In this document: positions 48,424 to 61,629 of the stretch, one piece after another
How the letters are laid out: every line of letters starts with the position of its first letter
Numbering within the stretch: the first letter of the stretch is position 1
Assembly: GCF_000470315.2 (NCBI RefSeq)
Contig: NZ_CBRF02000018.1
Span: 1-64,000, forward strand
Direction of reading: 5' to 3'
DNA length: 64,000 bases
DNA from: Psychromonas sp. SP041
Lineage (GTDB): Bacteria > Pseudomonadota > Gammaproteobacteria > Enterobacterales > Psychromonadaceae
Notes under the pieces: model-generated
Databases searched by the model: none
The model's input: the letters and a program-made list of their open reading frames with translations, nothing else
Told to the model about the DNA's origin: nothing
Translations under genes and position numbers: made by a program

Positions 48424-48849
48424 TTAGTAATTATACTTTTGTTCTATGCTTATTTTTTCAGCTAGATATTGATTGTAATTAATCTGTTGAGTGGCCAGTT
48501 TTTCAGCTAAAACAGAAAATTCGGCTTGTTTATTTTTATATAGTTGATATTTAGTCACATCATAATTAATCGACATTGCACCATCATAACCACTAATAGG
48601 ATCCCACAAGATAGAAATAGGCCAAAGTAATAAATTAACCAGTCCGTAACTAGGTTGGCCTACATAAAAAGAACCAAATCCAGGTAAAATACCTAAAACA
48701 GCACCCGTTGTAGGATTTTTTTCTTCAATTAATACACCATCACGTTCAAAAGCTGCATACTCTTTTTTTTCAATGGAATTTAACCCTCTCACACAACCTG
48801 ATAACACTACAATAGCTAAAATTAGTGTCATGCCTTTTATAAAATTCAC
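48424..48849 (-). CDS. Hypothetical lipoprotein, 141 aa
   Basis: Lipoprotein signal with lipobox LSGC (Cys 19). The middle segment TTGAVLGILPGFGSFYVGQPSYGLVNLLLWPISILWDP is Gly-rich and hydrophobic, like the TM2-type hairpin (two short membrane-embedded segments). The C-terminal part is a Lys/Gln/Tyr-rich helix. It may be inserted in the inner leaflet as well as lipid anchored. No function was recognised. Confidence 0.65.
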   Translation of the reverse strand: MNFIKGMTLILAIVVLSGCVRGLNSIEKKEYAAFERDGVLIEEKNPTTGAVLGILPGFGSFYVGQPSYGLVNLLLWPISILWDPISGYDGAMSINYDVTKYQLYKNKQAEFSVLAEKLATQQINYNQYLAEKISIEQKYNY

Positions 48850-49725: not shown

Positions 49726-50361
49726 GTGGAACACTTCCTCATTAATATAACGAGCTACCCAACTGTTATTTACACAACATTATTGTTAATAATATTATTA
49801 TTTTGGCTATTGACCGTTATTGGTTTATTTGAAATGGATGTTTTAGATATTGATATAGATCTCGACACATCTGAAGTGGGTGGTGCATTAGGCGTGCTAG
49901 TCACACTTGGATTAACTGGTGTTCCTTTCACTTTAGTACTCAGTATTCTTATATTATATAGCTGGACATTATGCTCAATAATAACATCACTTAGCGGTAT
50001 TATTTATCTTGATAGCAATTTTTTAACCTTTCTTTTAAACACTTTTATCTTATTCGTTACTGGTGCTATTTCAATCCCTCTTACGGCTAAAACCATTACC
50101 CCACTCAGACCACTATTTCGTTCTATTAATCAAGGCCCCACACAAGAAACCTTAATGGGTAAAAGAGCACGAGTACGAACCACTAAAATTGACAACATAT
50201 CTGGGCAAGTTGAATGCTCTCGTGACGGCGCTAGTTTAATACTTAATGCGAGAGCAGACGGCACACATCAGTACATATATGGCGAAACAGTCGTCATTAT
50301 CGACTTTTTAGAAATAGACAACGTCTATGTTGTCGTGAGTGAACAACAATTCAATCAATAA
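49726..50361 (+). CDS. yqiJ: YqiJ-like NfeD-family membrane protein
   Basis: Membrane protein whose genes regularly precede flotillin genes. Three hydrophobic segments fill residues 10-130; an OB-fold domain (about 138-210) contains LMGKRARVRTTKID and GETVVIIDFLEIDNVYVVV, as in YuaF/NfeD proteins. It is expected to work with the flotillin in membrane microdomains. The start follows AAAGGAAAATTT. It is 19 bases before the flotillin gene, so the pair form an operon. Confidence 0.82.
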   Translation: MEHFLINITSYPTVIYTTLLLIILLFWLLTVIGLFEMDVLDIDIDLDTSEVGGALGVLVTLGLTGVPFTLVLSILILYSWTLCSIITSLSGIIYLDSNFLTFLLNTFILFVTGAISIPLTAKTITPLRPLFRSINQGPTQETLMGKRARVRTTKIDNISGQVECSRDGASLILNARADGTHQYIYGETVVIIDFLEIDNVYVVVSEQQFNQ

Positions 50362-50380
50362 TAAATACGGAGCTTAAACC

Positions 50381-52438
50381 ATGGATACTAGTATCTTAAT
50401 CACCATAGGTACTGCAGTAGTTGCTGTCATTGCCATCGTTATATTACTGGCAATGACATTCAGTGCCTTTTATAAAAAAATTAGTCAAGGGCATGCAATG
50501 ATCGTGAATGATATGTCCTCAAAGCCAAAAGTACATTTTACAGGTGGGATGGTATTACCGGTTGTACACAAGATGGAAATAATGAAAATCTCATTAATTA
50601 CCCTTGAGATCGACCGCCGCGGTAGTGATGGTTTAATTTGTAAAGATAACTTGCGTGCAGATATTACAGTGGCCTTTTACTTACGTGTAAATGAAACACG
50701 TGATGATGTATTGAAAGTAGCAAAAGCAATTGGTGTTGACCGTGCGTCTGACAAAAATGCGGTTAACGAGTTATTTAATGCTAAATTTTCTGAAGCGTTA
50801 AAAACCGCGGGTAAAGGTATGGACTTTCTTGAGCTTTTTGAAAATCGTATGGGCTTTCGTGAAAAGATTGTAACAGTCGTAGGTAACGACCTTAATGGTT
50901 ATGTATTAGAAGATGTTGCTATTGATTACTTAGAGCAAACACCAAAATCTAGTTTAGATCCAAACAACATTTTAGACTCTGAAGGTATTCGTAAAATTAC
51001 TGAAAAAACCGCAGTACAAAATATTGAAACTAACCGTTTAGAAAAAGATGAATCTCTTTCTATTACCAAAAAGAACGTAGAAACACGTGAAGCAATGCTT
51101 GCGTTAGAACGTCAAGAAGTCGATGCTGAATCAAAACAGAAGCGTGAAATCGAAACCGTTAGAGCACGTGAAGAAGCTGAAACAAAGAAAATTCAACAAG
51201 AAGAGCGCAGCAAATCAGAACAAGCAGAACTAGAGGCTGATGAGCAAATCGCTATACGAGACCAGGTTAAACAACGTCAAGTTGAAATTGCTGAACAAAG
51301 CAGAGAACGCGCCGTTATTATTGAGAAAGAAAAAGTCATTCGAGCACAAGAAATGGAAATCGTTAATCGTAAACGCGAAGTTGAGTTATCTGAAATTGAT
51401 AAAGAAAAAGCGCTGGAAGAAGAACGTAAAATCATTGCTCAAACTATCAGTGAACGAATTGCAGTAGACCGTAAAGTGGCTGAAGAAGAAGAACGCATTA
51501 AAGAAGTGCAAGAAGTTTCAGAAGCTGACCGTCTAAGACAAATTACTATCATAGAAGCGGAAGCAACAGCACAAGAACAACTACTTCGCGTTGTTAAGCA
51601 AGCTGAAGCAGATGAACAAAAAGCAGAACATAAGTCTCGTGAAATCAACTTAATGGCGCAAGCAAACCTGGAAGTTGCCTCTAAAGAAGCAGAGTCTGTT
51701 AAAAAACTCGCAGAAGGTACACAAGCAGAGCAAGCGGCGCACGGTTTAGCAGATGCAAAAGTCCTAATAGCAAAAGCAGATGCAACAGAGAAAGAAGGTC
51801 TGGCTAAAGTTCGAGTAGAAGAAGCACAAGCAAAAGCAACTGAAATGACCGGACTTGCAGAAGCTAAAGTACTGGAAGAAAAGCTCACTGCTGAAGCTCG
51901 CGGTAATGAAGAACTAGGTAAAGCAGAAGCGGTTTCTAAACGTGAAATTGGCTTAAGTGAAGCGCAAGTATTAACTGAAAAAGGGAAAGCGGAAGCTGTC
52001 TCTACTCGTGAAATTGGTATCAGTGAAGCTGACATCATTCGTGAGAAGGGTAAAGCGGAAGCCGATGGTCTGGTTGAAAAATTTGCTGCAATGAACAATA
52101 TGAGCAAAGAAAGCAGAGAATTTGAAGAGTTCCGTATGAACCTTGAAATAGAGTTCAAACAAACACTCGCTAATATTGAAGCGAATAAAGAAATTTCAAA
52201 CGATCAAGCAAGTGTATTAGGTGCGGCACTTAAACATGCGAATATCGATATTGTGGGTGGGCAAGGTGAATACTTTGATAAATTATACAAAGGATTAGGC
52301 GCAGGTAATGCGATTAACGGATTCTTAGAAAAGAGCCCTGTTATCCAAAGCTTGATGGAGAAATTATTGGCTGGTACCTCAAATGAAAAAGAGATAAACC
52401 AACCGATCACAGAAACAACCAAAACGCCTGAGGTTTAA
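50381..52438 (+). CDS. yqiK: Flotillin-like protein YqiK
   Basis: One N-terminal membrane helix (about residues 5-28) is followed by an SPFH domain (about 40-200) and a very long charged coiled coil (about 220-600), rich in Glu, Lys, Ala and Arg, with tandem GEAEAVSxREIG-like segments typical of flotillins. It should form large oligomers on the inner membrane. The 685 residues are longer than the ~550 of E. coli YqiK, mostly in the coiled coil. Two hairpins lie after it, before the large ATPase gene. Confidence 0.88.
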   Translation: MDTSILITIGTAVVAVIAIVILLAMTFSAFYKKISQGHAMIVNDMSSKPKVHFTGGMVLPVVHKMEIMKISLITLEIDRRGSDGLICKDNLRADITVAFYLRVNETRDDVLKVAKAIGVDRASDKNAVNELFNAKFSEALKTAGKGMDFLELFENRMGFREKIVTVVGNDLNGYVLEDVAIDYLEQTPKSSLDPNNILDSEGIRKITEKTAVQNIETNRLEKDESLSITKKNVETREAMLALERQEVDAESKQKREIETVRAREEAETKKIQQEERSKSEQAELEADEQIAIRDQVKQRQVEIAEQSRERAVIIEKEKVIRAQEMEIVNRKREVELSEIDKEKALEEERKIIAQTISERIAVDRKVAEEEERIKEVQEVSEADRLRQITIIEAEATAQEQLLRVVKQAEADEQKAEHKSREINLMAQANLEVASKEAESVKKLAEGTQAEQAAHGLADAKVLIAKADATEKEGLAKVRVEEAQAKATEMTGLAEAKVLEEKLTAEARGNEELGKAEAVSKREIGLSEAQVLTEKGKAEAVSTREIGISEADIIREKGKAEADGLVEKFAAMNNMSKESREFEEFRMNLEIEFKQTLANIEANKEISNDQASVLGAALKHANIDIVGGQGEYFDKLYKGLGAGNAINGFLEKSPVIQSLMEKLLAGTSNEKEINQPITETTKTPEV

Positions 52439-52450
52439 TTAACCTCTTCC

Positions 52451-52563
52451 TACTCAGCATTTAATCGTTTAATAAGGAATGTGTCATATTCAATCACCTG
52501 ATTAAACGATTACCTGAGTAGCAAGCCATTTAACCTATCTATAGTCAGAGCCCTGCTCTGACT
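52451..52563 (+). terminator. Two intercistronic hairpins after yqiK
   Basis: The first is a long stem, TACTCAG..TAATCGTTTAAT with ATTAAACGATTA..CTGAGTA, spanning 52451-52520. The second is AGTCAGAGC-CCT-GCTCTGACT at 52543-52563. Neither has a long T-run. They may cause partial termination or mark an RNA processing point between the flotillin and the ATPase messages. Confidence 0.55.
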
Positions 52564-52592
52564 TATCAATTAAAGCTGTTTAGGAAGTAATT

Positions 52593-55500
52593 GTGACTGA
52601 TAAATCAACGATAGTAGAACAAGCCGTAGCACAAGGTGGCGCCTATGAAATCATTCGTAAACGTCTTGAAGAACAAGGCAACCAACTAGATAGCTTAACG
52701 CAACAGCTCAACTTAGAGAGACAAAAAGAGTTCGGCGCGACTGAAATGAAAGTGTTGGGGCGTACTCGTATTCGAACAGAACATAATTGCCAAGCAACAG
52801 ACTTAGTGATCGTCGGCGATTATGTACTATTCGGTTATAATGTTTTCCTAGGTTTAAAAAAACAAACGCTGTTAAGTGATGTTCTTTCTCTGTTTAAATT
52901 AGAACAAGTCGAACAGCAATATGAATTAAAGCACGTCGAGTTAGCTAATTCCTTTCTATCAGACCCTCGGTTTGTTACTGAATTCCAAGAAGTGTATGCG
53001 TATTATAAAGATGCCACCCTCTCACAGTTAGTATTAAGAAATAACAAACTGTTAGCCGCCTTTAGCATTGGTGAAAAACTAACGGATATTCGCGTATTCC
53101 GTTGGCAAGTCAGCGGTAATGATATTGAATATATCGATAATCGCGGTGAACGTGACTTAAAACTGCCTGATACTCATGATTTCAAATGGCATCGTTGTAG
53201 CCGTGAAGACGTTATCGATGGGCGTAATCCACATATCAATATATTGGACACTTTGTTCATTGACAGTTTACGTGGCGATATCACCATAAAAATTGAAGAT
53301 AATACCGATGTCGGTCAAGGTATCTACAGTGAGCCAGTACAAGAAAGCAATCAATCGATTAATGATGCTGAATTTTATTACGCAGACCTTGACCCTATTA
53401 TCTTATTGAAGATAAGACCTTATCAAGAAGAGCATTTTCGATACCTGCTTTTTAATAAAAATAACCAACATATACAACGTCTTGATGCCATTGGCGACTC
53501 GTGCCAACAACTCCCTGAAAACCACGGCATTATATTCCCTGGTGGTTATTATCTCACCACCGGAGAGTTTAAAACCTTCGAAGATAATCTAGAAGGTTTA
53601 GTGTTTAATAGCACCAAGAAATCACCTAACGGCGAAGATGTGCTATTCGTGTTCTATCAACCACATACTAATATCGTGGCGTTATATCCATACAACTTAA
53701 TCAATAAGTCATTGCAAAACCCAATATTTGGACATGGTTATGGTTTCTATGAAGATGGCCGTATGATCATCTTTTATGCAGAACAAGAAGCAAGCCGCAT
53801 TCACCCTGTGCAAATTTGGCAAACAGCTTATTATTCAGATGTTTTTGCTAGCCAACAAATTCAGTCCCCTACTTTCTTCGGTAAAATAGGTAACACTGAT
53901 CTTGTACGTGGTATTTCTGAGTTATATACCATCTCAAAAAGTATTCACCAAGAAGCCAGCTCTGCTAATCATTACAATGATTTGATCAAACATTGCGCCA
54001 CTATTTTTGATGCTTATTATTGGCTAGACAGCAAAGAACTTGAGCCGATCCGCAACCTGCTTTATACGGTGAAAGAAACCTCGGAAGCAGTGATAGATGA
54101 ATATGAAAAAGTAGAAAGTATTCGTAAACAATCAGACAAAGCATTAAGTGAAGCAAGTAAAAAGCAAGTCGAGATATTACGTCAAATTCAGCCTGGCAGT
54201 TGGCATACTCCGCAGGATTTTGTAGATGGATTAAATACCATCTCAGCACAACAAGGGCATTTATTAACCATTAGAGAATACCGTTATATTGATGTAACGG
54301 CGATTGATGAATTAAACCAAAAACTGACTAAAACAAGTGAAGAATTGAATCAACAAACTGTTGAGTTCTTATCGTCTGATGATGCTTTAAAAAGTTATTA
54401 CAGTGACCTTGAACAGATTATTTCAAGCAGTGAAAAGGCCCAATCTACCGCAGAACTATCTCCTCAAATAGAGGCATTGAACGATATTTCACAAGGATTA
54501 GATCTGATTAGTCAGATCATGGCTTCATTAAAAGTATCTGATGCCACTATGCAAACACAGATTGTTGATGCGGTTTCTACCTTATACAGTAAAATTAATC
54601 AGCAAAAAGCCCAGCTCAGCCACCAACAAAAAAGTTTTGGTAGCCACGAAGCACAAGCTCAATTTTCAGCAAGATTAAAACTATTAAACCAAACCATTCA
54701 CAATGCGCTAAGCCTTTCAACCTCACCCGATAAATGTGATGAGCAATCAGCACGATTAATGGTACAAGTTGAAGAATTAGAAAGTGAATTCAGCGAATAT
54801 GATGAATTCATTGGCGATATTGTCACAAAACGTGATGAGATATTTGAATCTTTTGAAGCCCATCGTCAAACGCTTATTGAAACAAGACAACGCAAGGCAC
54901 AATCATTAGAGGATGCTGCAAAACGTATTTTATCCTCAGTGACGAAACGTATTAATCGTTTTACTGAAGCCAGTGAAATGAATACCTTTTTTGCAGCCGA
55001 TAGTTTAATCAATAAAATTCGCGATATAATTAAACAGCTAAACCAGCTTGATAGCTCAGTTAAAGCGGAAGATATCGATGCAAAACTAAAAGCCATTAAA
55101 GCACAAGCATTACGCTCTTTACGTGATAAAAGTGACTTATTTGAGGAAGGTGGCAATGTCATCAAGTTAGGTCCTCGCCACAAATTCTCAGTGAACAAGC
55201 AAGCCTTAGATTTAAGTATATTAGCAAAAGGCGAACAGATGTATGTCCGATTAGCCGGTACAGATTATGAACAAATCTTACAACATGCTAAATTAGATGA
55301 CTTAAAACCTTACTGGAATATACATTATCCATCTGAAACGACCTCGCTATACCGCAGTGAATTCTTAGCTTATTCGATATTACAAGCCGCTATTAATCAA
55401 ACGGATGGCTTAACATGGCAATCACTTAGCGCAGTAGTAGGAAGCCAAGAATTACTCTCTAAATTAGTCAGCGAATTTGCCAGTACACGTTATAAAGAAG

Positions 55501-57497
55501 GTTATGAGAAAGGCATACATGATTTTGATGCCACATTAATATTAACCAAATTATTCCCAGCTTATGAAACCGCAGGTGTATTTGTTCACAGTCCATTTGC
55601 GAGAGGGTTAGCCTGTATTTTTTGGGCTAATACGCAAGCCGAAAAACCTCAAACACTGTGGCATCAAGCGTGTAAGAATGCAGCTCAGATGCAACGTCTT
55701 TTTGGCCAGTTAACGGCAAAAACGACCATCATTAATGAAATTCAACAATCATTAACCGCCTTTGTAGCAAAACATCAATTCACTGTTTCAACACAAATCA
55801 TTGCACGAGCAAGTGAATACTTAAGTGAAGAGCTCGCAAAAGATCAAATTAGTTTTGATACCAGTAAATATGCTCGTCGTTTATGTGATGATTTTACAAC
55901 GTATTTAAATACACATGATGTTTGGCAAGACTACCTAAAATTATTGAACGAATTACAAGGCGCAACAGGTAAACGCTGGCAGTTAACAGAAAGTTGGTTA
56001 ACAGCATTTGTTGAGTCACAAGGTAAAACAGACTTATATGAATTTATCGGCGAAGCGATTGGTATTCTTAATGCGGAAAAACGTATCGACAGAAATGATC
56101 GTGAAGTTGATATTCAATTTACCATTACAGGGTTGCTAGGTAATCATACGCTTATTAAAGAACAAGCCTTAACGATTCAATTACCTGATTTTCTGGATCG
56201 TAACAATCATTTCCATCAACAAGTGTTACCAAAATACTTAGATTACTTAAGTACGCGTCAACAGGTTATGGCCGAACAAAAGTCATTACTTCGCTTAGAT
56301 GAATTTAAAGCAAAACCATTATCATCATTTGTGCGTAACCGTTTAATTTCTGATTCTTATTTACCATTAATTGGTGATAACCTCGCCAAACAAATGGGCA
56401 CAGTAGGCAGCAGTAAACGTACCGACTTGATGGGGTTATTGTTGATGATATCCCCGCCTGGATACGGTAAAACGACGCTAATGGAATATGTAGCGGATCG
56501 TCTTGGTTTAATATTCATGAAAATTAACTGCCCTGTTATTGGTCATTCAGTGACATCCGTTGATCCAAATGGTGCAACCGACAGCGCAGCAAAGCAAGAA
56601 CTAGAAAAACTTAATCTAGCCTTAGAAATGGGCAGTAATGTCATGTTATATCTAGATGATATTCAACATACCAACTCAGAGTTCTTACAAAAATTTATTT
56701 CGCTTTGTGATGGTACAAGAAAAATTGAAGGGGTATGGCAAGGTAAAACCAAGACCTATGACATGCGCGGTAAAAAGTTCTGTGTGGTGATGGCCGGTAA
56801 TCCCTACACTGAAACCGGTGAAACATTCCAAATTCCAGATATGTTAGCCAACCGAGCAGATATTTATAACCTAGGTGATGTATTAAGTGGTAAAGAAGAG
56901 GTGTTCAACTTAAGTTATATTGAAAACGCCCTCTCTTCCAATGCAGTGTTAGCACCTTTAGCCAGTCGCTCGATGGATGATGTCTATAAATTTGTTGATA
57001 TGGCAGAGGGCAAAAACATAGCGAATACTGACTTTAGTCACCAATATAGTGGCGCTGAAAGCAAAGAGATCGTGACGGTGTTACAAAAACTACAAAAAAT
57101 ACAGACAGTTGTTGCTGTAGTGAATAAACAATACATTCAGTCAAGTGCACAAGATCCTAAATACTGCACAGAGCCCCCATTCAAGTTACAAGGTTCATAT
57201 CGTAATATGAATAAAATGGCTGAAAAGATCTCTGCCATTATGACCGATAAAGAATTAGCCGACTTGGTTGATGATCATTACCAAGGTGAATCGCAGTTAC
57301 TCACAACAGGCACTGAAGCGAATCTATTAAAATTAGCTGAATTACGAGGGTTATTAACCTCAGAAGAGAATAAACGCTGGGCATCGATAAAGGCTGACTT
57401 TAAACGAAACTTAGCAATGGGCGGCGATGAAACAGATAGCGGACAGCAAATTGTAGGTCAACTGAATGATATCGTGAATGCCATTAATAATAAGTAA
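52593..57497 (+). CDS. Giant AAA+ ATPase of the 'DNA repair ATPase' family
   Basis: A 1634-residue protein, GTG start with TAGGAAG 6 bases before it. The first ~450 residues are beta-rich and look propeller-like. A long helical/coiled-coil region (about 480-900) follows, then a helical domain. The C-terminal AAA+ domain has Walker A PPGYGKTT near residue 1290, Walker B-like MLYLDDIQH near 1350, and a sensor segment VVMAGNPYTETGE. Related proteins, annotated DNA repair ATPase without firm evidence, usually lie beside YqiK-type flotillins. There is no nuclease or DNA-binding motif that I can identify. I infer a membrane-stress or remodelling role with the flotillin. Confidence 0.8.
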   Translation: MTDKSTIVEQAVAQGGAYEIIRKRLEEQGNQLDSLTQQLNLERQKEFGATEMKVLGRTRIRTEHNCQATDLVIVGDYVLFGYNVFLGLKKQTLLSDVLSLFKLEQVEQQYELKHVELANSFLSDPRFVTEFQEVYAYYKDATLSQLVLRNNKLLAAFSIGEKLTDIRVFRWQVSGNDIEYIDNRGERDLKLPDTHDFKWHRCSREDVIDGRNPHINILDTLFIDSLRGDITIKIEDNTDVGQGIYSEPVQESNQSINDAEFYYADLDPIILLKIRPYQEEHFRYLLFNKNNQHIQRLDAIGDSCQQLPENHGIIFPGGYYLTTGEFKTFEDNLEGLVFNSTKKSPNGEDVLFVFYQPHTNIVALYPYNLINKSLQNPIFGHGYGFYEDGRMIIFYAEQEASRIHPVQIWQTAYYSDVFASQQIQSPTFFGKIGNTDLVRGISELYTISKSIHQEASSANHYNDLIKHCATIFDAYYWLDSKELEPIRNLLYTVKETSEAVIDEYEKVESIRKQSDKALSEASKKQVEILRQIQPGSWHTPQDFVDGLNTISAQQGHLLTIREYRYIDVTAIDELNQKLTKTSEELNQQTVEFLSSDDALKSYYSDLEQIISSSEKAQSTAELSPQIEALNDISQGLDLISQIMASLKVSDATMQTQIVDAVSTLYSKINQQKAQLSHQQKSFGSHEAQAQFSARLKLLNQTIHNALSLSTSPDKCDEQSARLMVQVEELESEFSEYDEFIGDIVTKRDEIFESFEAHRQTLIETRQRKAQSLEDAAKRILSSVTKRINRFTEASEMNTFFAADSLINKIRDIIKQLNQLDSSVKAEDIDAKLKAIKAQALRSLRDKSDLFEEGGNVIKLGPRHKFSVNKQALDLSILAKGEQMYVRLAGTDYEQILQHAKLDDLKPYWNIHYPSETTSLYRSEFLAYSILQAAINQTDGLTWQSLSAVVGSQELLSKLVSEFASTRYKEGYEKGIHDFDATLILTKLFPAYETAGVFVHSPFARGLACIFWANTQAEKPQTLWHQACKNAAQMQRLFGQLTAKTTIINEIQQSLTAFVAKHQFTVSTQIIARASEYLSEELAKDQISFDTSKYARRLCDDFTTYLNTHDVWQDYLKLLNELQGATGKRWQLTESWLTAFVESQGKTDLYEFIGEAIGILNAEKRIDRNDREVDIQFTITGLLGNHTLIKEQALTIQLPDFLDRNNHFHQQVLPKYLDYLSTRQQVMAEQKSLLRLDEFKAKPLSSFVRNRLISDSYLPLIGDNLAKQMGTVGSSKRTDLMGLLLMISPPGYGKTTLMEYVADRLGLIFMKINCPVIGHSVTSVDPNGATDSAAKQELEKLNLALEMGSNVMLYLDDIQHTNSEFLQKFISLCDGTRKIEGVWQGKTKTYDMRGKKFCVVMAGNPYTETGETFQIPDMLANRADIYNLGDVLSGKEEVFNLSYIENALSSNAVLAPLASRSMDDVYKFVDMAEGKNIANTDFSHQYSGAESKEIVTVLQKLQKIQTVVAVVNKQYIQSSAQDPKYCTEPPFKLQGSYRNMNKMAEKISAIMTDKELADLVDDHYQGESQLLTTGTEANLLKLAELRGLLTSEENKRWASIKADFKRNLAMGGDETDSGQQIVGQLNDIVNAINNK

Positions 57498-57508
57498 AAG
57501 TAATAAAT

Positions 57509-57535
57509 AAAAGCAATAAACACTTTATTGCTTTT
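57509..57535 (+). terminator. Terminator after the giant ATPase gene
   Basis: Perfect 12-bp stem AAAAGCAATAAA/TTTATTGCTTTT with a 3-base loop, 11 bases after the stop. The T-run is part of the stem. A second hairpin AACTCACTTA/TAAGTGAGTT at 57564-57603 precedes the next gene. Confidence 0.75.
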
Positions 57536-57640
57536 AATAGCATCACTTTAATTGGTTTAATATAACTCACTTATCACTTCATTGATGAGGTCGTAAGTGA
57601 GTTTTGTAACCCGAAGAAATAATTAACTAAGGATTCACCT

Positions 57641-57919
57641 ATGGCACTCATTCATATGACGCGAGAGCACAGCTTATCGATTCCAGTCCTAAAACAAAAA
57701 ATTGATAACATAGCGGCAGATTTAGCCTCTGAATATCAGCTAAAAAGTGAATGGGAAGATAACTGTCTTTTTTTTCGTCGTAAAGGGGCCAGTGGTAGCA
57801 TTGAAGTTGACGCACAAAGCTTGGAGTTGAACTTAACGCTTGGAACACTGTTTAAAGTCGCCAAAAGTGAAATAGAATCAAAAATAAACAAGATGTTAGA
57901 TACACATTTGAATGAATAG
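57641..57919 (+). CDS. Polyhydroxyalkanoic acid system family protein
   Basis: A 92-residue protein matching the PHA_gran_rgn family (TIGR02610-like): HSLSIPVLKQKIDNIAADLASEY, then WEDNCLFFRRKGASGSIEVDAQSLELNLTLGTL, ending in IESKINKMLD. The family is named for co-occurrence with polyester granules; its biochemical role is unknown. No PHA synthase or phasin gene is in this window. It is 143 bases after the ATPase and may belong to the same cluster. Confidence 0.8.
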   Translation: MALIHMTREHSLSIPVLKQKIDNIAADLASEYQLKSEWEDNCLFFRRKGASGSIEVDAQSLELNLTLGTLFKVAKSEIESKINKMLDTHLNE

Positions 57920-58368: not shown

Positions 58369-58714
58369 TGTTATTATTCCAGTATTTAAATAAAAAGAGA
58401 GTTAACGTCGAACCATAAATTTCATTGTGGGCTTTATACCCATCACCATTAAAGATCTAAAAATTAGCAAGTCGTAAGGTCAACAAATGCTAGGTATAAA
58501 GGTAAAGGTCACAAGTCGGAATTTGATGAACCATATTAAGCCATTTATATCGCGACTTAACGTTATTATAAACAAAGTTTAAAAATCAATTGATTATAAA
58601 TACCATTTTATAATTAGTGAATGTTACACCCTTATCTCAACTCACAACTTAATGATATGATGATGCGATAAATGACACCAAATTTACTTGATAAAAATCG
58701 CCAAGGTACACCTT
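58369..58714. other. Divergent promoter gap with a repeat fragment
   Basis: Holds the promoters of the lipoprotein gene and of the three-gene operon. Bases 58433-58472 (TATACCCATCACCATTAAAG...) resemble the left end of the TACCCGTTACC repeat; GGTATAAAGGT at 58495 pairs with ACCxTTATACC-like words. No gene was found. Confidence 0.5.
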
Positions 58715-59830
58715 ATGACAAACACTGATGAGATTATTGAAATTGAAAATCAAGATGAGCTGAATTTAGCGATTCGTCCTGATCATATGGAAAATGAGAT
58801 CAACGTTCGTATTGCAAAAGAACAATCGAGTGTATTTGAACTACTTCGTCGTGAAAAACGAGGTGATCTTGTATTGGCACCTGATTTTCAAAGAAATGAT
58901 ATTTGGGATTTAAAACATAAATCAGAACTAATTGAGTCTATTTTAATGGGGTTTCCAATCCCTTTAATTTATCTTTTTGAAAATGAAAATGGTATTAGAC
59001 AAGTGGTAGATGGTAAGCAACGAATTACCGCCTTAAAAATGTTCCTCAATAATGAATTCGCGCTAACGTCACTGTCAATGTTGCCAGATTTAAAAGGCAA
59101 AACCTTTGATGATATACGCCCTCTTTCGCAAGCAAAGCTAGAAGACTACCAATTACATACTTATATCATTCAACCTCCTACGCCAGAGTTTGTGAAATTC
59201 AATATTTTTGAACGGGTTAATCGAAGTGGGATCAGCATTAACAAACAAGAGATGCGCCATGCTTTGTACCAAGGTAAAATCACTGATTTACTGCAAGAAC
59301 TAGCAGAAAGTAAAGCATTCAAGCTTTGCACTGATCATGGGGTAAAACCAGATCGAATGCGTGACCGCTATTTAGTATTACGTTTTATCGCTTTTTATCT
59401 ATTAAAGGCAGAACAAACACCTACAACCAATATTGAATTTAAATCAGATATTGACTCTTTTCTCGCAGCTACGATGACATACTTAAACGAGAAAGCGTCT
59501 GATGAATTAATTCAACATATTAAACAAACTTGTTTGCAAGGGATGCACAATACCTATCAAATAATAGGCGATCAGGCTTGTCGCTTTGACACTAAAGCAT
59601 CGACTCATAAACGCCCTCTCAATATGGGATTATTCGAAATGTTAGTCTTTGCGTTTAGCCATATAGAGTTCGATACAGTGAACATAAAAGAGGCTAAAAA
59701 TCTCATTAAAGAGAAGAAAGCTTATCTCGATGAGCAAGGCACTTTTGGCAGTACCATCGATACTATTGAACATGTAACAATGCGGTTTAATACTGCTCTA
59801 GAAATAACGAAAGGATTAAACAATGCTTAA
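58715..59830 (+). CDS. DUF262 (GmrSD N-terminal-like) protein
   Basis: DUF262 is the NTP-binding/hydrolysing half of GmrSD-type modification-dependent restriction enzymes and of BrxU. The motifs are DFQRNDIW near residue 57, ESILMGFPIPLIYLFE, and VVDGKQRITAL near 98, with FNIFERVNRSGISINKQEMRHALY later. No DUF1524 HNH nuclease domain follows, so the nuclease activity must lie in another protein, or the protein has another role. I start at the ATG at 58715 with AAGG upstream; a 9-residue longer frame is possible. It overlaps the next gene by 8 bases. Confidence 0.85.
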   Translation: MTNTDEIIEIENQDELNLAIRPDHMENEINVRIAKEQSSVFELLRREKRGDLVLAPDFQRNDIWDLKHKSELIESILMGFPIPLIYLFENENGIRQVVDGKQRITALKMFLNNEFALTSLSMLPDLKGKTFDDIRPLSQAKLEDYQLHTYIIQPPTPEFVKFNIFERVNRSGISINKQEMRHALYQGKITDLLQELAESKAFKLCTDHGVKPDRMRDRYLVLRFIAFYLLKAEQTPTTNIEFKSDIDSFLAATMTYLNEKASDELIQHIKQTCLQGMHNTYQIIGDQACRFDTKASTHKRPLNMGLFEMLVFAFSHIEFDTVNIKEAKNLIKEKKAYLDEQGTFGSTIDTIEHVTMRFNTALEITKGLNNA

Positions 59831-60872
59831 GCAACTCGATATTACTAACTTAAAAAGTATTAGTAAAACATCATTAAAACTTGCTCCCTTGACCATTCTA
59901 GCGGGTGCAAATTCCGCAGGTAAATCCACGGTGATGCAGGCACTGATGTTATTAATCAAACATAGTGGCTCAAGCAATCGCTTTAGTATGGAAGAACTAT
60001 TACGCTATATGAACGATTTCTCGGCTATTCGTAACAAAAGAACCAATGCTAAATCATTAAATATCACTGTCATCGATCATCAAGATAAAGCCCATCAGAT
60101 CAACATAAATGCAGATGGCACAGAAGCTGATAGCCAATTACAGTACGTCTATGAACCGCCAACAAAAATCACTGAACAAGAGCTGCTATACCTAAATGCA
60201 AACCGTATTGGCGCACAAGAATTAGTGCCAGTAGCCGACCGAAAAATAGGTTTATTAGGTGAATTTGTTTTTCCTACTTTTGATAAAGTAAAAGGCAATA
60301 TTTTACCCGACGAACTGTTAAAATTTGAAGGGTCGAAAACCATTTCGTATCAACTCAGCCAATGGTTAGCGTTTATCACAGGTACTTCGTTAGAACTGCA
60401 AACAGAAAAAACAAGCGATCAAGTTAAAGTCTCTTTCAACGTAAAAGATATAGACAGCCAAGTTTCCCCTTACAATTTAGGTGCTGGCATGAGTGATGTC
60501 GCCAAGGTACTCATTGTGTGTTTAATGGCTAAAAAAGGCGATTTGATTTTAATTGAAAATCCAGAAGTACAACTTCACCCTAAAGCACAGGCACTACTAG
60601 GTGTATTCCTCGCGTTTATCGCCAGTTCAGGTATTCAGCTCATTATTGAAACACACTGTGAGCACTTAATTAATAAAGTCGCTTATCAAGTATATGAAGA
60701 TGAAATAGAAAGTGAAGATGTTGTGATTCATTACAAAGGACATGTAGAAGAAGACTTTCAAGCTATTACTATTGACCTTAATGGTGAATTTAATGACCCA
60801 GAAGGCAATATCATTAGCTTCCCGGCAGGTTTTTTTGATGTGACTTTAACTGACTTGATGGATATGAGGTAA
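59823..60872 (+). CDS. AAA-family ATPase (OLD/DUF3696-like)
   Basis: SMC/ABC-type ATPase of the class found in OLD and related defence proteins. Walker A GANSAGKST is near residue 28, Walker B LILIENPEVQLHP near 240, and IIETHCEHLINK with the D-loop/H-loop near 275. The C-terminal DUF3696-like region has no TOPRIM signature, unlike OLD itself. It begins inside the DUF262 gene and ends 7 bases before the third gene, a compact operon. Confidence 0.87.
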   Translation: MLKQLDITNLKSISKTSLKLAPLTILAGANSAGKSTVMQALMLLIKHSGSSNRFSMEELLRYMNDFSAIRNKRTNAKSLNITVIDHQDKAHQININADGTEADSQLQYVYEPPTKITEQELLYLNANRIGAQELVPVADRKIGLLGEFVFPTFDKVKGNILPDELLKFEGSKTISYQLSQWLAFITGTSLELQTEKTSDQVKVSFNVKDIDSQVSPYNLGAGMSDVAKVLIVCLMAKKGDLILIENPEVQLHPKAQALLGVFLAFIASSGIQLIIETHCEHLINKVAYQVYEDEIESEDVVIHYKGHVEEDFQAITIDLNGEFNDPEGNIISFPAGFFDVTLTDLMDMR

Positions 60873-60879
60873 CTAAGCC

Positions 60880-61629
60880 ATGGCTGAAAAAATGGTGCTC
60901 AGTACCTCTTTATTAATCGCCTACGAAAACATGGCGTTTGATGCTCGTCAGTATCAAAAAAAGTATAAGCGTTTAATGAAAACCTTAGCATTGCCCTATA
61001 AAACTAATAAAAGGCAGTTAATTGAGGCAAAAAGCCAAGGGCTTAACGACGTTACATACAATCGATTAATGCCTCAGTTACAGCATCAATATGACAGAGA
61101 TGACTCCCTGGAAATGTTGGCCATGAACACCAGTTTAAAAATTATTCTAACGGAAGATAAAGCCGCTAAGTTGCCCTATGTATTTTATCGTTCATCGTTT
61201 CTTAGTAATGAATTATCAATGAGTTTACAAGCAGATGATAGCCGTGCTGATTTAGTTAAATACTTACAAATACTGTGTGCGAGTGCCACTAAAATCACCA
61301 TTTGTGATAACTACTTTGCACAAGGCTGGGACAATACCCAAAGCCTATTTAGGTTTGTATTACCGCGGCATAAACTGCAAATAGAATATGTCGAAACCCC
61401 ACGTGTCATCACAGTGACAAAGAACAGTTCCAAAATGAATGAGCGATTCATGCATACCATTTGTAAAGAGTGGTCTATCTCTGAAAGCACAAAATATAGA
61501 GGCTCTCACGATCGCTATCTACTGATTGAATCTCCCCAAGGTGACATTGAAGTCATGCTTTCAAGTGGATTTGATCATATTTGGAAGAGTCGACCGAAAG
61601 AGATCACTTGTGTTATTCGAGAGGCATGA
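60880..61629 (+). CDS. Protein with PLD-like HDRY motif, third gene of the cassette
   Basis: A 249-residue protein of no named family that I recognise. The C-terminal part contains SHDRYLLIE near residue 208 and EVMLSSGFDHIWK, which resembles the HDR(F/Y)LII...GxS pattern of small phospholipase-D-like domains seen in nuclease and defence proteins. A second HKD copy is not seen. ITICDNYFAQGWDN near 146 may be another half of the fold. It ends the operon and would be the effector if this is a defence system. There is no membrane segment. Confidence 0.6.
   Translation: MAEKMVLSTSLLIAYENMAFDARQYQKKYKRLMKTLALPYKTNKRQLIEAKSQGLNDVTYNRLMPQLQHQYDRDDSLEMLAMNTSLKIILTEDKAAKLPYVFYRSSFLSNELSMSLQADDSRADLVKYLQILCASATKITICDNYFAQGWDNTQSLFRFVLPRHKLQIEYVETPRVITVTKNSSKMNERFMHTICKEWSISESTKYRGSHDRYLLIESPQGDIEVMLSSGFDHIWKSRPKEITCVIREA

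Follow-up and report, generated by a model that had tools for sequence, protein, structure and literature searches.

A giant AAA+ ATPase and a flotillin-type SPFH protein with its own C-terminal tail, probably parts of one membrane-maintenance machine, in Psychromonas sp. SP041

The window analyzed here, a 64,000-nucleotide stretch of Psychromonas sp. SP041 (contig NZ_CBRF02000018.1), carries four open reading frames (ORFs) between positions 49726 and 57919, all on the forward strand in the window's ORF listing, and the four genes that the initial annotation placed there are real. The genes and their features are as follows.

49726..50361, + strand: YqiJ/NfeD-like membrane protein (211-aa ORF)
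50381..52438, + strand: SPFH (flotillin-type) protein (685-aa ORF)
52034..52372, + strand: C-terminal tail of the SPFH protein, residues 552-664 (profile A6)
52462..52563, no strand: two inverted repeats in the gap between the SPFH and ATPase genes (16 nt, 94% complementary, and 9 nt, 100% complementary)
52593..57497, + strand: giant AAA+ protein with DUF3686, DUF7902, and AAA (1634-aa ORF; Pfam)
52737..53828, + strand: predicted beta-propeller of the ATPase, residues 49-412 (predicted model and fold matches)
53838..55142, + strand: predicted long helical/coiled-coil region of the ATPase, residues 416-850 (DSSP on the model)
56313..57353, + strand: predicted AAA+ module of the ATPase, residues 1241-1587 (invariant motifs; model and fold matches)
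57508..57536, no strand: 13-nt perfect inverted repeat with a 3-nt loop, between the ATPase and PHA genes
57564-57603: second inverted repeat in the ATPase-PHA gap (19 nt, 84%)
57641..57919, + strand: PHA_gran_rgn small protein (92-aa ORF)

A scan for terminator-like elements picked up neither the repeats of the SPFH-ATPase gap nor the repeat at 57508..57536, and the promoter and terminator counts were no more than chance would give (30 found versus 32.4 expected; 6 found versus 6.4 expected). The last gene, encoding a PHA_gran_rgn protein (Pfam E 1.6e-23; TIGR02610), had been counted as part of the operon, an assignment that we rejected: among the best 80 of 228 relatives it lies beside the ATPase at two loci (P. 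aquimarina L014 and Aliikangiella L015), a masked BLAST search, which remote copies could escape, found it at 0 of 19 further loci, and the 13-bp perfect inverted repeat stands between the genes. It is probably a neighbor and not part of the machine.

The first two genes had been read as a YqiJ-YqiK pair, which is imprecise, in that an SPFH/Band_7 gene is indeed present but is of a different SPFH subfamily, and the accompanying protein is only a remote relative of YqiJ. The YqiJ-like protein is hydrophobic over its N-terminal two thirds and soluble in its C-terminal part by hydropathy, and at 69 of the best 80 loci (of 228 relatives) a homologous gene precedes the SPFH gene. E. coli YqiJ itself matches the Pfam YqiJ family; none of the 28 aligned YqiJ-like homologues matches the Pfam YqiJ models PF21001 and PF07290. 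Comparison with E. coli YqiJ by hhalign (probability 94.6, E 6.5e-8, 138 columns) points to remote relatedness, and a PDB sequence search returned one match, at E 0.73.

By hydropathy and Pfam, the SPFH protein is laid out as an N-terminal TM segment (residues 1-35), a Band_7 domain, a long charged helical region, and a C-terminal tail. Band_7 was found in residues 1-200 (E 5.7e-11, 43.2 bits over a cut-off of 23.6; 43.4 bits in the genome search), while the full 685-aa protein gave no Pfam match at 0.01 and a PDB sequence search with it gave 0 matches. The Pfam Flot model (PF15975), which E. coli YqiK matches at E 6.4e-41, gives the SPFH protein 12.4 bits, below the cut-off of 27; it finds no match anywhere in the organism's own genome, 0 of 36 SPFH tails, and 2 of 28 full-length SPFH proteins at 0.01, one of the two being E. 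coli YqiK. Without this domain and with a C-terminal tail of its own, the protein is, on sequence grounds, not a YqiK of the E. coli type, with which it shares 26% identity over 435 aligned positions. The tail is predicted to run as a helix, a strand-like IDIVGG block, and a second helix, and its profile comparison with E. coli YqiK gave a probability of 1.1, which counts against a shared cap. Its colinearity with E. coli YqiK, judged by eye, suggests an equivalent of the cage cap, and we regard it as a predicted cage-cap module that may also dock the ATPase.

Full-length homologues of the ATPase were found at 80 genome loci (the best 80 of 228 relatives) and in 12 records of a plasmid collection. 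Pfam places DUF3686 (PF12458) at residues 32-476 (E 6.4e-183), DUF7902 (PF25472) at residues 597-680 (E 1.4e-21), and AAA at residues 1283-1406, where AAA and AAA_5 are both over cut-off; it reports no protease domain, and hydropathy indicates no TM segment. The beta-rich N-terminal domain and central coiled coil read earlier from the sequence reappear in the model of residues 1-870 (mean pLDDT 84.6) as a predicted beta-propeller, at about 49-412, followed by long helices at 416-850. Foldseek found propeller matches, VIA-align gave a best Z of 10.3 (rmsd 6.2 over 225), and a PDB sequence search with the N-terminal half returned one match, at E 0.081.

Further, the protein is predicted to be a complete AAA+ motor with its motifs intact. 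Specifically, PPGYGKT (1288-1294), D1355 D1356, and N1403, which we take to be Walker A, Walker B, and sensor 1, and R1421 and R1537, presumably the arginine-finger and sensor 2 candidates, are invariant in 39/39 aligned sequences from four phyla. The modeled module resembles those of NorQ/CbbQ, dynein AAA1, ClpA, and RuvB; among its fold matches NorQ is first (Z 13.4, rmsd 4.5 over 240) with dynein tied (Z 12.8), and a fold search of viral structures agrees, its best matches being MoxR-like and dynein-related AAA proteins. Beta-hairpin strands at residues 1377-1390 (model 533-538 and 541-546) lie ahead of strand 553-557, and such a hairpin between the Walker B helix and the sensor-1 strand is, we assume, the mark of the presensor-1 beta-hairpin superclade (RuvB, Clp D2, MoxR, dynein). 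The helix-2 hairpin region (AAA+ model residues 1316-1331) is without a strand, with NorQ/CbbQ ranking first and dynein tied. Profile matches to Cdc48/Rix7 chains are confined to a stretch of some 35-67 positions around Walker A, and PHROGs gave weak ATPase matches only. Most relatives extend further at the C-terminus. A truncated or broken gene was considered and rejected, since in 17 of 100 aligned sequences, the window ATPase among them, fewer than 40 residues follow the point where the window ATPase ends, and the three frames past the stop are unlike a continuation, so that natural variation is the likelier explanation.

At 93 of 99 loci, among them at least two pairs from a single genome each, the SPFH gene lies just upstream of the ATPase gene, on the same strand in 93/93 and across a gap of 5-859 bp (median 109). 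Of the six loci without an adjacent SPFH gene, four lie too close to the end of the contig to hold one, one has the cognate pair unlinked elsewhere in its genome, and one yielded no SPFH gene; at locus L025 there is none within 8 kb upstream of the ATPase. Genome G264 holds both the ATPase and the yqiJ-SPFH pair, on different contigs. The upstream SPFH gene recurs in 11/11 records from Pseudomonadota, Deinococcota, Actinomycetota, and Bacteroidota, and an SPFH homologue in 75 of 80 loci, a set biased towards close relatives because it comprises the best of 228 from a pattern scan. Samples of 60, 276, and 397 genomes are less biased but overlap, G000 and G029 being in all three. Of 60 relatives, 8 have the ATPase, and exactly these 8 also have the cognate SPFH protein (at least 473 bits); 14 others hold only the distant YqiK type (107-157 bits), none of them with the ATPase. 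The SPFH-tail profile, A6, some rows of which were taken from genomes that were then tested, and DUF3686 occur in identical genome sets, 7 of 276 and 10 of 397. The tree-distance correlation of ATPase with SPFH protein (r 0.848) is no higher than that with YqiJ (0.865) and thus adds nothing specific for SPFH. The initial annotation had drawn a functional link between ATPase and flotillin from position only; adjacency over four phyla and the exact co-occurrence of the tail in the two larger samples strengthen it, and the opposite pattern, an ATPase usually away from flotillin-type genes, was looked for and not seen in the 99 loci. Since each of the two was found in the sampled genomes wherever the other was, we regard the SPFH protein and the ATPase as probable parts of one membrane-maintenance machine.

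A further association is with DUF2170, a protein linked to PspA, present in 10/10 ATPase genomes versus 45/387 others in the 397-genome sample and in 8/8 versus 31/52 others among the 60 relatives, counts on which the Fisher test ignores kinship. Recurrent neighbors of the ATPase loci are PspA, DUF2170, rhomboid, and PLD-like genes, with a PspA homologue in 52 of the best 80 loci (of 228 relatives); the Deinococcus, Streptomyces, and Nonomuraea loci gave no DUF2170 or PspA match near the genes. In the organism's own genome, DUF2170 sits beside one PspA homologue on contig G000:C3, away from the window operon. This partner had been missed in the sequence-only annotation.

We lean, with modest confidence, towards an AAA+ motor that specifically serves an SPFH assembly and acts with PspA in envelope maintenance. 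By analogy with other SPFH proteins, this one would join the YqiJ-like protein in a ring or cage that sits on the cytoplasmic membrane, at its inner face. The ATPase would act as a soluble AAA+ motor whose propeller and long helices choose and grip a partner, which ATP hydrolysis in the AAA+ ring would remodel. That dedicated partner would be this SPFH subfamily, most likely through its subfamily-specific C-terminal tail, which may stand in for the canonical flotillin cap. To maintain the envelope, the machine would cooperate with the DUF2170-PspA pair and may either open or dismantle the SPFH assembly, or free PspA or client proteins from it. A more detailed version is offered tentatively, as a possibility that we would not yet call probable: the propeller and helical arms might dock on a narrow cytoplasmic cap, formed by a tail that arose in this SPFH subfamily alone, and ATP might open, close, or dismantle the cage; the result would be a bacterial SPFH-AAA+ machine that works without proteolysis and is coupled to PspA, a relative of ESCRT-III. 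Co-occurrence speaks for partnership and not for contact or mechanism; the cage, docking, remodeling, and envelope role are what we infer, and membrane microdomains or envelope stress as the process are conjectural in published work as well as here. An SPFH tail that occurs only with one AAA+ motor provides a direct route to ask whether ATP remodels SPFH assemblies, and DUF2170-PspA in the same genomes ties the SPFH-ATPase pair to an ESCRT-III relative.

Alternatively, membrane-protein clients could be enclosed by the SPFH assembly and unfolded or pulled out by the ATPase, in the manner of FtsH and HflK/C, with neither the SPFH assembly nor PspA being remodeled. We consider such a confined chaperone or unfoldase unlikely: HflK/C-FtsH is a precedent for an SPFH-AAA+ pairing, and a rhomboid protease homologue lies in 32 of the best 80 loci (of 228 relatives), but this is under half, no rhomboid is among the window ORFs near the operon, and the ATPase is without a Pfam protease domain. 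More doubtful still is an anti-phage or mobile-element conflict system, a patchy cassette adjoining the NsnABC (Menshen) defense set. NsnA, NsnB, and NsnC do lie at 58688-61629 (PADLOC E 1.9e-103, 4.7e-81, and 6e-88), just 2 of 24 genomes from the genus have the ATPase, and homologues occur on plasmid records; yet PADLOC matches 0 of the 4 operon genes, NsnA/B/C are at 0 of the best 80 homologous loci (of 228 relatives), 50,697 phage records gave no match, the recurrent neighbors are those listed above, and among 59 flanking proteins from 10 loci nine PADLOC models had a match at 1e-20, each to a single protein, one being a dGTPase model. The patchy, horizontally shared cassette, with the nearest relatives of the window ATPase in other orders or classes (L015 Aliikangiella, L016 Mariprofundaceae), would also fit genes hitch-hiking in one transferred operon without physical partnership, to which we give very little credence, as the association holds over four phyla and in G264, where the genes are unlinked, and that with DUF2170 holds when unlinked too. 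DNA repair, named in the Pfam DUF3686 text ("ATPase involved in DNA repair") and by RefSeq ("DNA repair ATPase") and favored by the RuvB-like AAA+ core, was rejected as the best reading and is the least credible of all, given a predicted motor of AAA+ and not of the ABC type of Rad50/SMC (no SMC_N, AAA_23, or ABC match at E 0.01), a RuvB likeness limited to the core and common to NorQ, dynein, and ClpA, partners that are membrane proteins, and 0 papers in a literature search for the word DUF3686. The doubt already raised over this label was reasonable at the sequence level, and our results suggest that the label, widespread as it is, misleads for the DUF3686 family. Literature searches, with subscription journals and preprints mostly outside their scope, found no experimental study of this ATPase.

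Among known systems, MoxR-type AAA+ proteins (NorQ, CbbQ, RavA) have the closest solved AAA+ folds, although the AAA+ model shows no strand where their helix-2 hairpin would lie and dynein is tied. HflK/C-FtsH joins an SPFH assembly to an AAA+ motor at the membrane, as is proposed here, but FtsH is a membrane-anchored protease, whereas the window motor has neither a TM segment by hydropathy nor a protease domain match. As in E. coli YqiJ-YqiK and B. subtilis YuaF-YuaG, SPFH2 + NfeD2 pairs in the relevant sections of PMC2636767, a membrane-protein gene is followed by an SPFH gene with Band_7; unlike E. coli YqiK, the window protein (26% identical) has no Flot domain and its own tail, and no ATPase gene adjoins E. 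coli yqiJK. The gene set of the window operon is already described in silico in the operon sections of PMC11237479, as CesT/Tir-PspA, band-7/flotillin, an AAA+ protein with coiled coil and beta-propeller, and YqiJ/YuaF. Those sections name the C-terminal part flotillin, whereas the window tail has no Pfam Flot match, and the one-to-one distribution of tail and ATPase, the DUF2170 numbers, and the AAA+ placement are absent from them. The SPFH (band-7), YqiJ/YuaF-like, and propeller-AAA+ genes stand together in the window too; the full form, as described there, has the CesT/Tir (DUF2170)-PspA dyad within the operon, and the window holds an abbreviated form, its dyad on another contig.

Our results tie the giant AAA+ ATPase to one particular type of flotillin-like (SPFH) protein, and specifically to the C-terminal tail of that protein (residues 552-664). 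The four ORFs that the initial annotation had claimed at 49726-57919 are all present on the + strand of the window, which lies on contig C18 of a 4.8-Mb genome, with a small lipoprotein-like ORF on either side.

48424-48849, - strand, small lipoprotein-like ORF flanking the operon (weak TM2 match, E 0.026)
49726-50361, + strand, ORF, YqiJ-like membrane protein, 211 aa
50381-52438, + strand, ORF, SPFH protein, 685 aa
52593-57497, + strand, ORF, ATPase, 1634 aa
57641-57919, + strand, ORF, PHA_gran_rgn protein, 92 aa
57958-58368, - strand, small lipoprotein-like ORF flanking the operon

The ATPase does not usually lie away from flotillin genes. Counting every locus whose ATPase ORF reaches 1500 aa, an SPFH gene lies upstream on the same strand in 93 of 99, a total that includes two pairs (L022/L116 and L054/L122) which, from their lengths, are the same contig each, and the intervening gap is 5-859 bp (median 109). 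Where no SPFH gene was seen upstream, four loci (L030, L053, L058, and L071) hold at most 541 bp ahead of the ATPase ORF, and at L025 that space is taken up by other genes, of which two resemble transposase pieces by eye. At the last (L123), the upstream genes are unrelated, and the cognate SPFH gene and its YqiJ-like gene are on a different contig of the same genome. Plasmid-collection records gave the same arrangement in 11 of 11 examined (12 carry the ATPase; the 11 span Pseudomonadota, Deinococcota, Actinomycetota, and Bacteroidota, and several are of chromosome size). Of 228 genome loci carrying the ATPase, we took the best 80, of which that of Psychromonas aquimarina is the closest (ATPase 83% identical). 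The SPFH gene was found at 75 of them and the YqiJ-like gene at 69; the PHA_gran_rgn gene, initially read as an operon member, occurred at just two. At these 80 loci, several on cut contigs, we also found homologues of PspA (52), DUF2170 (36 and 14 for two query variants), rhomboid (32), PLD-like (29), YaeQ (26), TerB-like (24), and zinc-ribbon (15) proteins. The flanking lipoprotein-like ORFs matched no Pfam family at 0.01 and had no homologue at the 80 loci. Directly downstream of the operon (58688-61629) is a three-gene anti-phage set, NsnA-NsnB-NsnC (PADLOC; E 1.9e-103, 4.7e-81, and 6e-88), which we take to be the system named Menshen and which was found at none of the 80.

Beyond adjacency, the ATPase and the tail occur in identical sets of sampled genomes, and the two findings together put the link to flotillin on firmer ground than the position first invoked for it. 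The ATPase occurs in 8 of 60 relatives (2 of 24 within the genus), and SPFH matches by BLAST in 22; the eight ATPase genomes are the same eight with matches of at least 473 bits and at least 52% identity, and none of the other 14 (107-157 bits, 25-30% identity) has the ATPase. With a profile of the tail, seven of 276 genomes of the class and ten of 397 of the phylum carried it, the ATPase was in the same seven and ten, and no genome in either sample had only one of the two (Fisher, 4e-14 and 4e-20, uncorrected for kinship). Some profile rows come from sampled genomes (e.g., the window, L054, L120, and L121), which raises sensitivity for those genomes and does not explain absence in the rest. 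In one genome (G029, locus L119), a TGA near the N-terminus interrupts the ATPase reading frame, and the SPFH tail is still there.

DUF2170 was present in all ten ATPase genomes of the phylum sample versus 45 of 387 others, and in all eight among the relatives versus 31 of 52 (Fisher, 1e-9 and 0.04, uncorrected for kinship). It is often unlinked from the ATPase, lying on a different contig in six genomes (G000, that of the window, G023, G029, G034, G045, and G058) and ~86 kb away in G371. In the window's genome, the sole PspA match directly follows DUF2170:

L114:5091-7429 (contig C3 of G000), DUF2170-PspA-unknown-(RHH-like) cluster

The "YqiJ-YqiK pair" of the initial annotation is imprecise as a name. 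The first 200 aa of the SPFH protein match Band_7 (E 5.7e-11), a genome-wide Band_7 search also recovers it (43.4 bits), and along residues 14-435 of E. coli YqiK the two proteins share 26% identity; the YqiJ-like protein is remotely related to E. coli YqiJ by profile comparison (probability 94.6). However, E. coli YqiK has a Flot domain (E 6.4e-41), whereas the whole SPFH protein has no Pfam match at 0.01 and falls below the Flot cut-off (12.4 bits versus 27). Flot matched none of 36 tail segments and, at 0.01, two of 28 full-length proteins, one being E. coli YqiK itself. Similarly, E. coli YqiJ matches a Pfam YqiJ model, unlike the YqiJ-like protein and its homologues (0 of 28). By hydropathy, the YqiJ-like and SPFH proteins have transmembrane segments and the ATPase has none.

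Pfam assigns the ATPase to the DUF3686 (E 6.4e-183), DUF7902, and AAA families, and the protein was covered by two overlapping AlphaFold2 models, of residues 1-870 (mean pLDDT 84.6, pTM 0.62) and 845-1634 (86.0 and 0.66). The first bears out the beta-rich N-terminal domain and following helical region proposed earlier, with ~28 strands in residues 53-410 and then helices. Foldseek paired it with many beta-propellers (WD40, prolyl oligopeptidase, and clathrin terminal domain) at low TM-scores, and with coiled-coil chains of microtubule doublets; VIA-align against the DCAF1 WD40 domain gave Z 10.3 (rmsd 6.2 over 225 residues), and seven blades would fit the modeled propeller. The second combines a helical domain with an AAA+ module, for which RuvB ranked top in Foldseek, and VIA-align gave NorQ (Z 13.4, rmsd 4.5 over 240), dynein (12.8), CbbQ (12.7), and ClpA (11.8). 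The presensor-1 superclade has a hairpin between Walker B and sensor 1, and the model has a beta-hairpin at that position; the MoxR helix-2 hairpin was not seen in it. Thirty-nine ATPase sequences from four phyla all share the same Walker A, Walker B, sensor, and arginine-finger residues. At several Pseudoalteromonas loci (L079-L091), the ATPase reaches ~1930-2040 aa and is extended at its C-terminus by up to ~400 residues.

According to passages of PMC11260169, SPFH proteins form rings and cages, and the C-terminus of human flotillin is the narrow end, comprising a cap helix, a beta-strand, and a C-terminal helix. The tail of ATPase-linked SPFH proteins occupies the same position in the chain and reads helix, IDIVGG, helix. 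Comparing its profile against E. coli YqiK gave no significant result (probability 1.1), so its homology to the flotillin cap is putative. Tail and ATPase come and go together and other SPFH types occur without the motor, which makes the tail the likeliest place for the ATPase to dock on the SPFH assembly. As a precedent for the PspA link, PMC8581546 reports that the B. subtilis SPFH protein YdjI is required for PspA recruitment to the membrane. We therefore favor an ATP-driven motor that would remodel either this SPFH assembly itself or, on it, PspA or clients. The earlier interpretation is partly supported as a whole, and the role of the tail as the ATPase partner site becomes a sharp, testable prediction.

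In our literature search, no paper contained the word DUF3686. The operon type is already described, in the in-silico account of PMC11237479, whose operon passages hold neither the one-to-one tail/ATPase distribution and DUF2170 numbers nor the missing Flot domain and AAA+ placement given here. A single long cluster on plasmid pQBR103 of Pseudomonas fluorescens SBW25 contains YjfI-PspA-rhomboid-DUF2491-DUF350-DUF1190-glutathionylspermidine synthase together with YqiJ-like-SPFH-ATPase, that is, two PspA operon groups of that account, as its passages define them, in tandem. Relative to the operon in those passages, that of the window is an abbreviated form.
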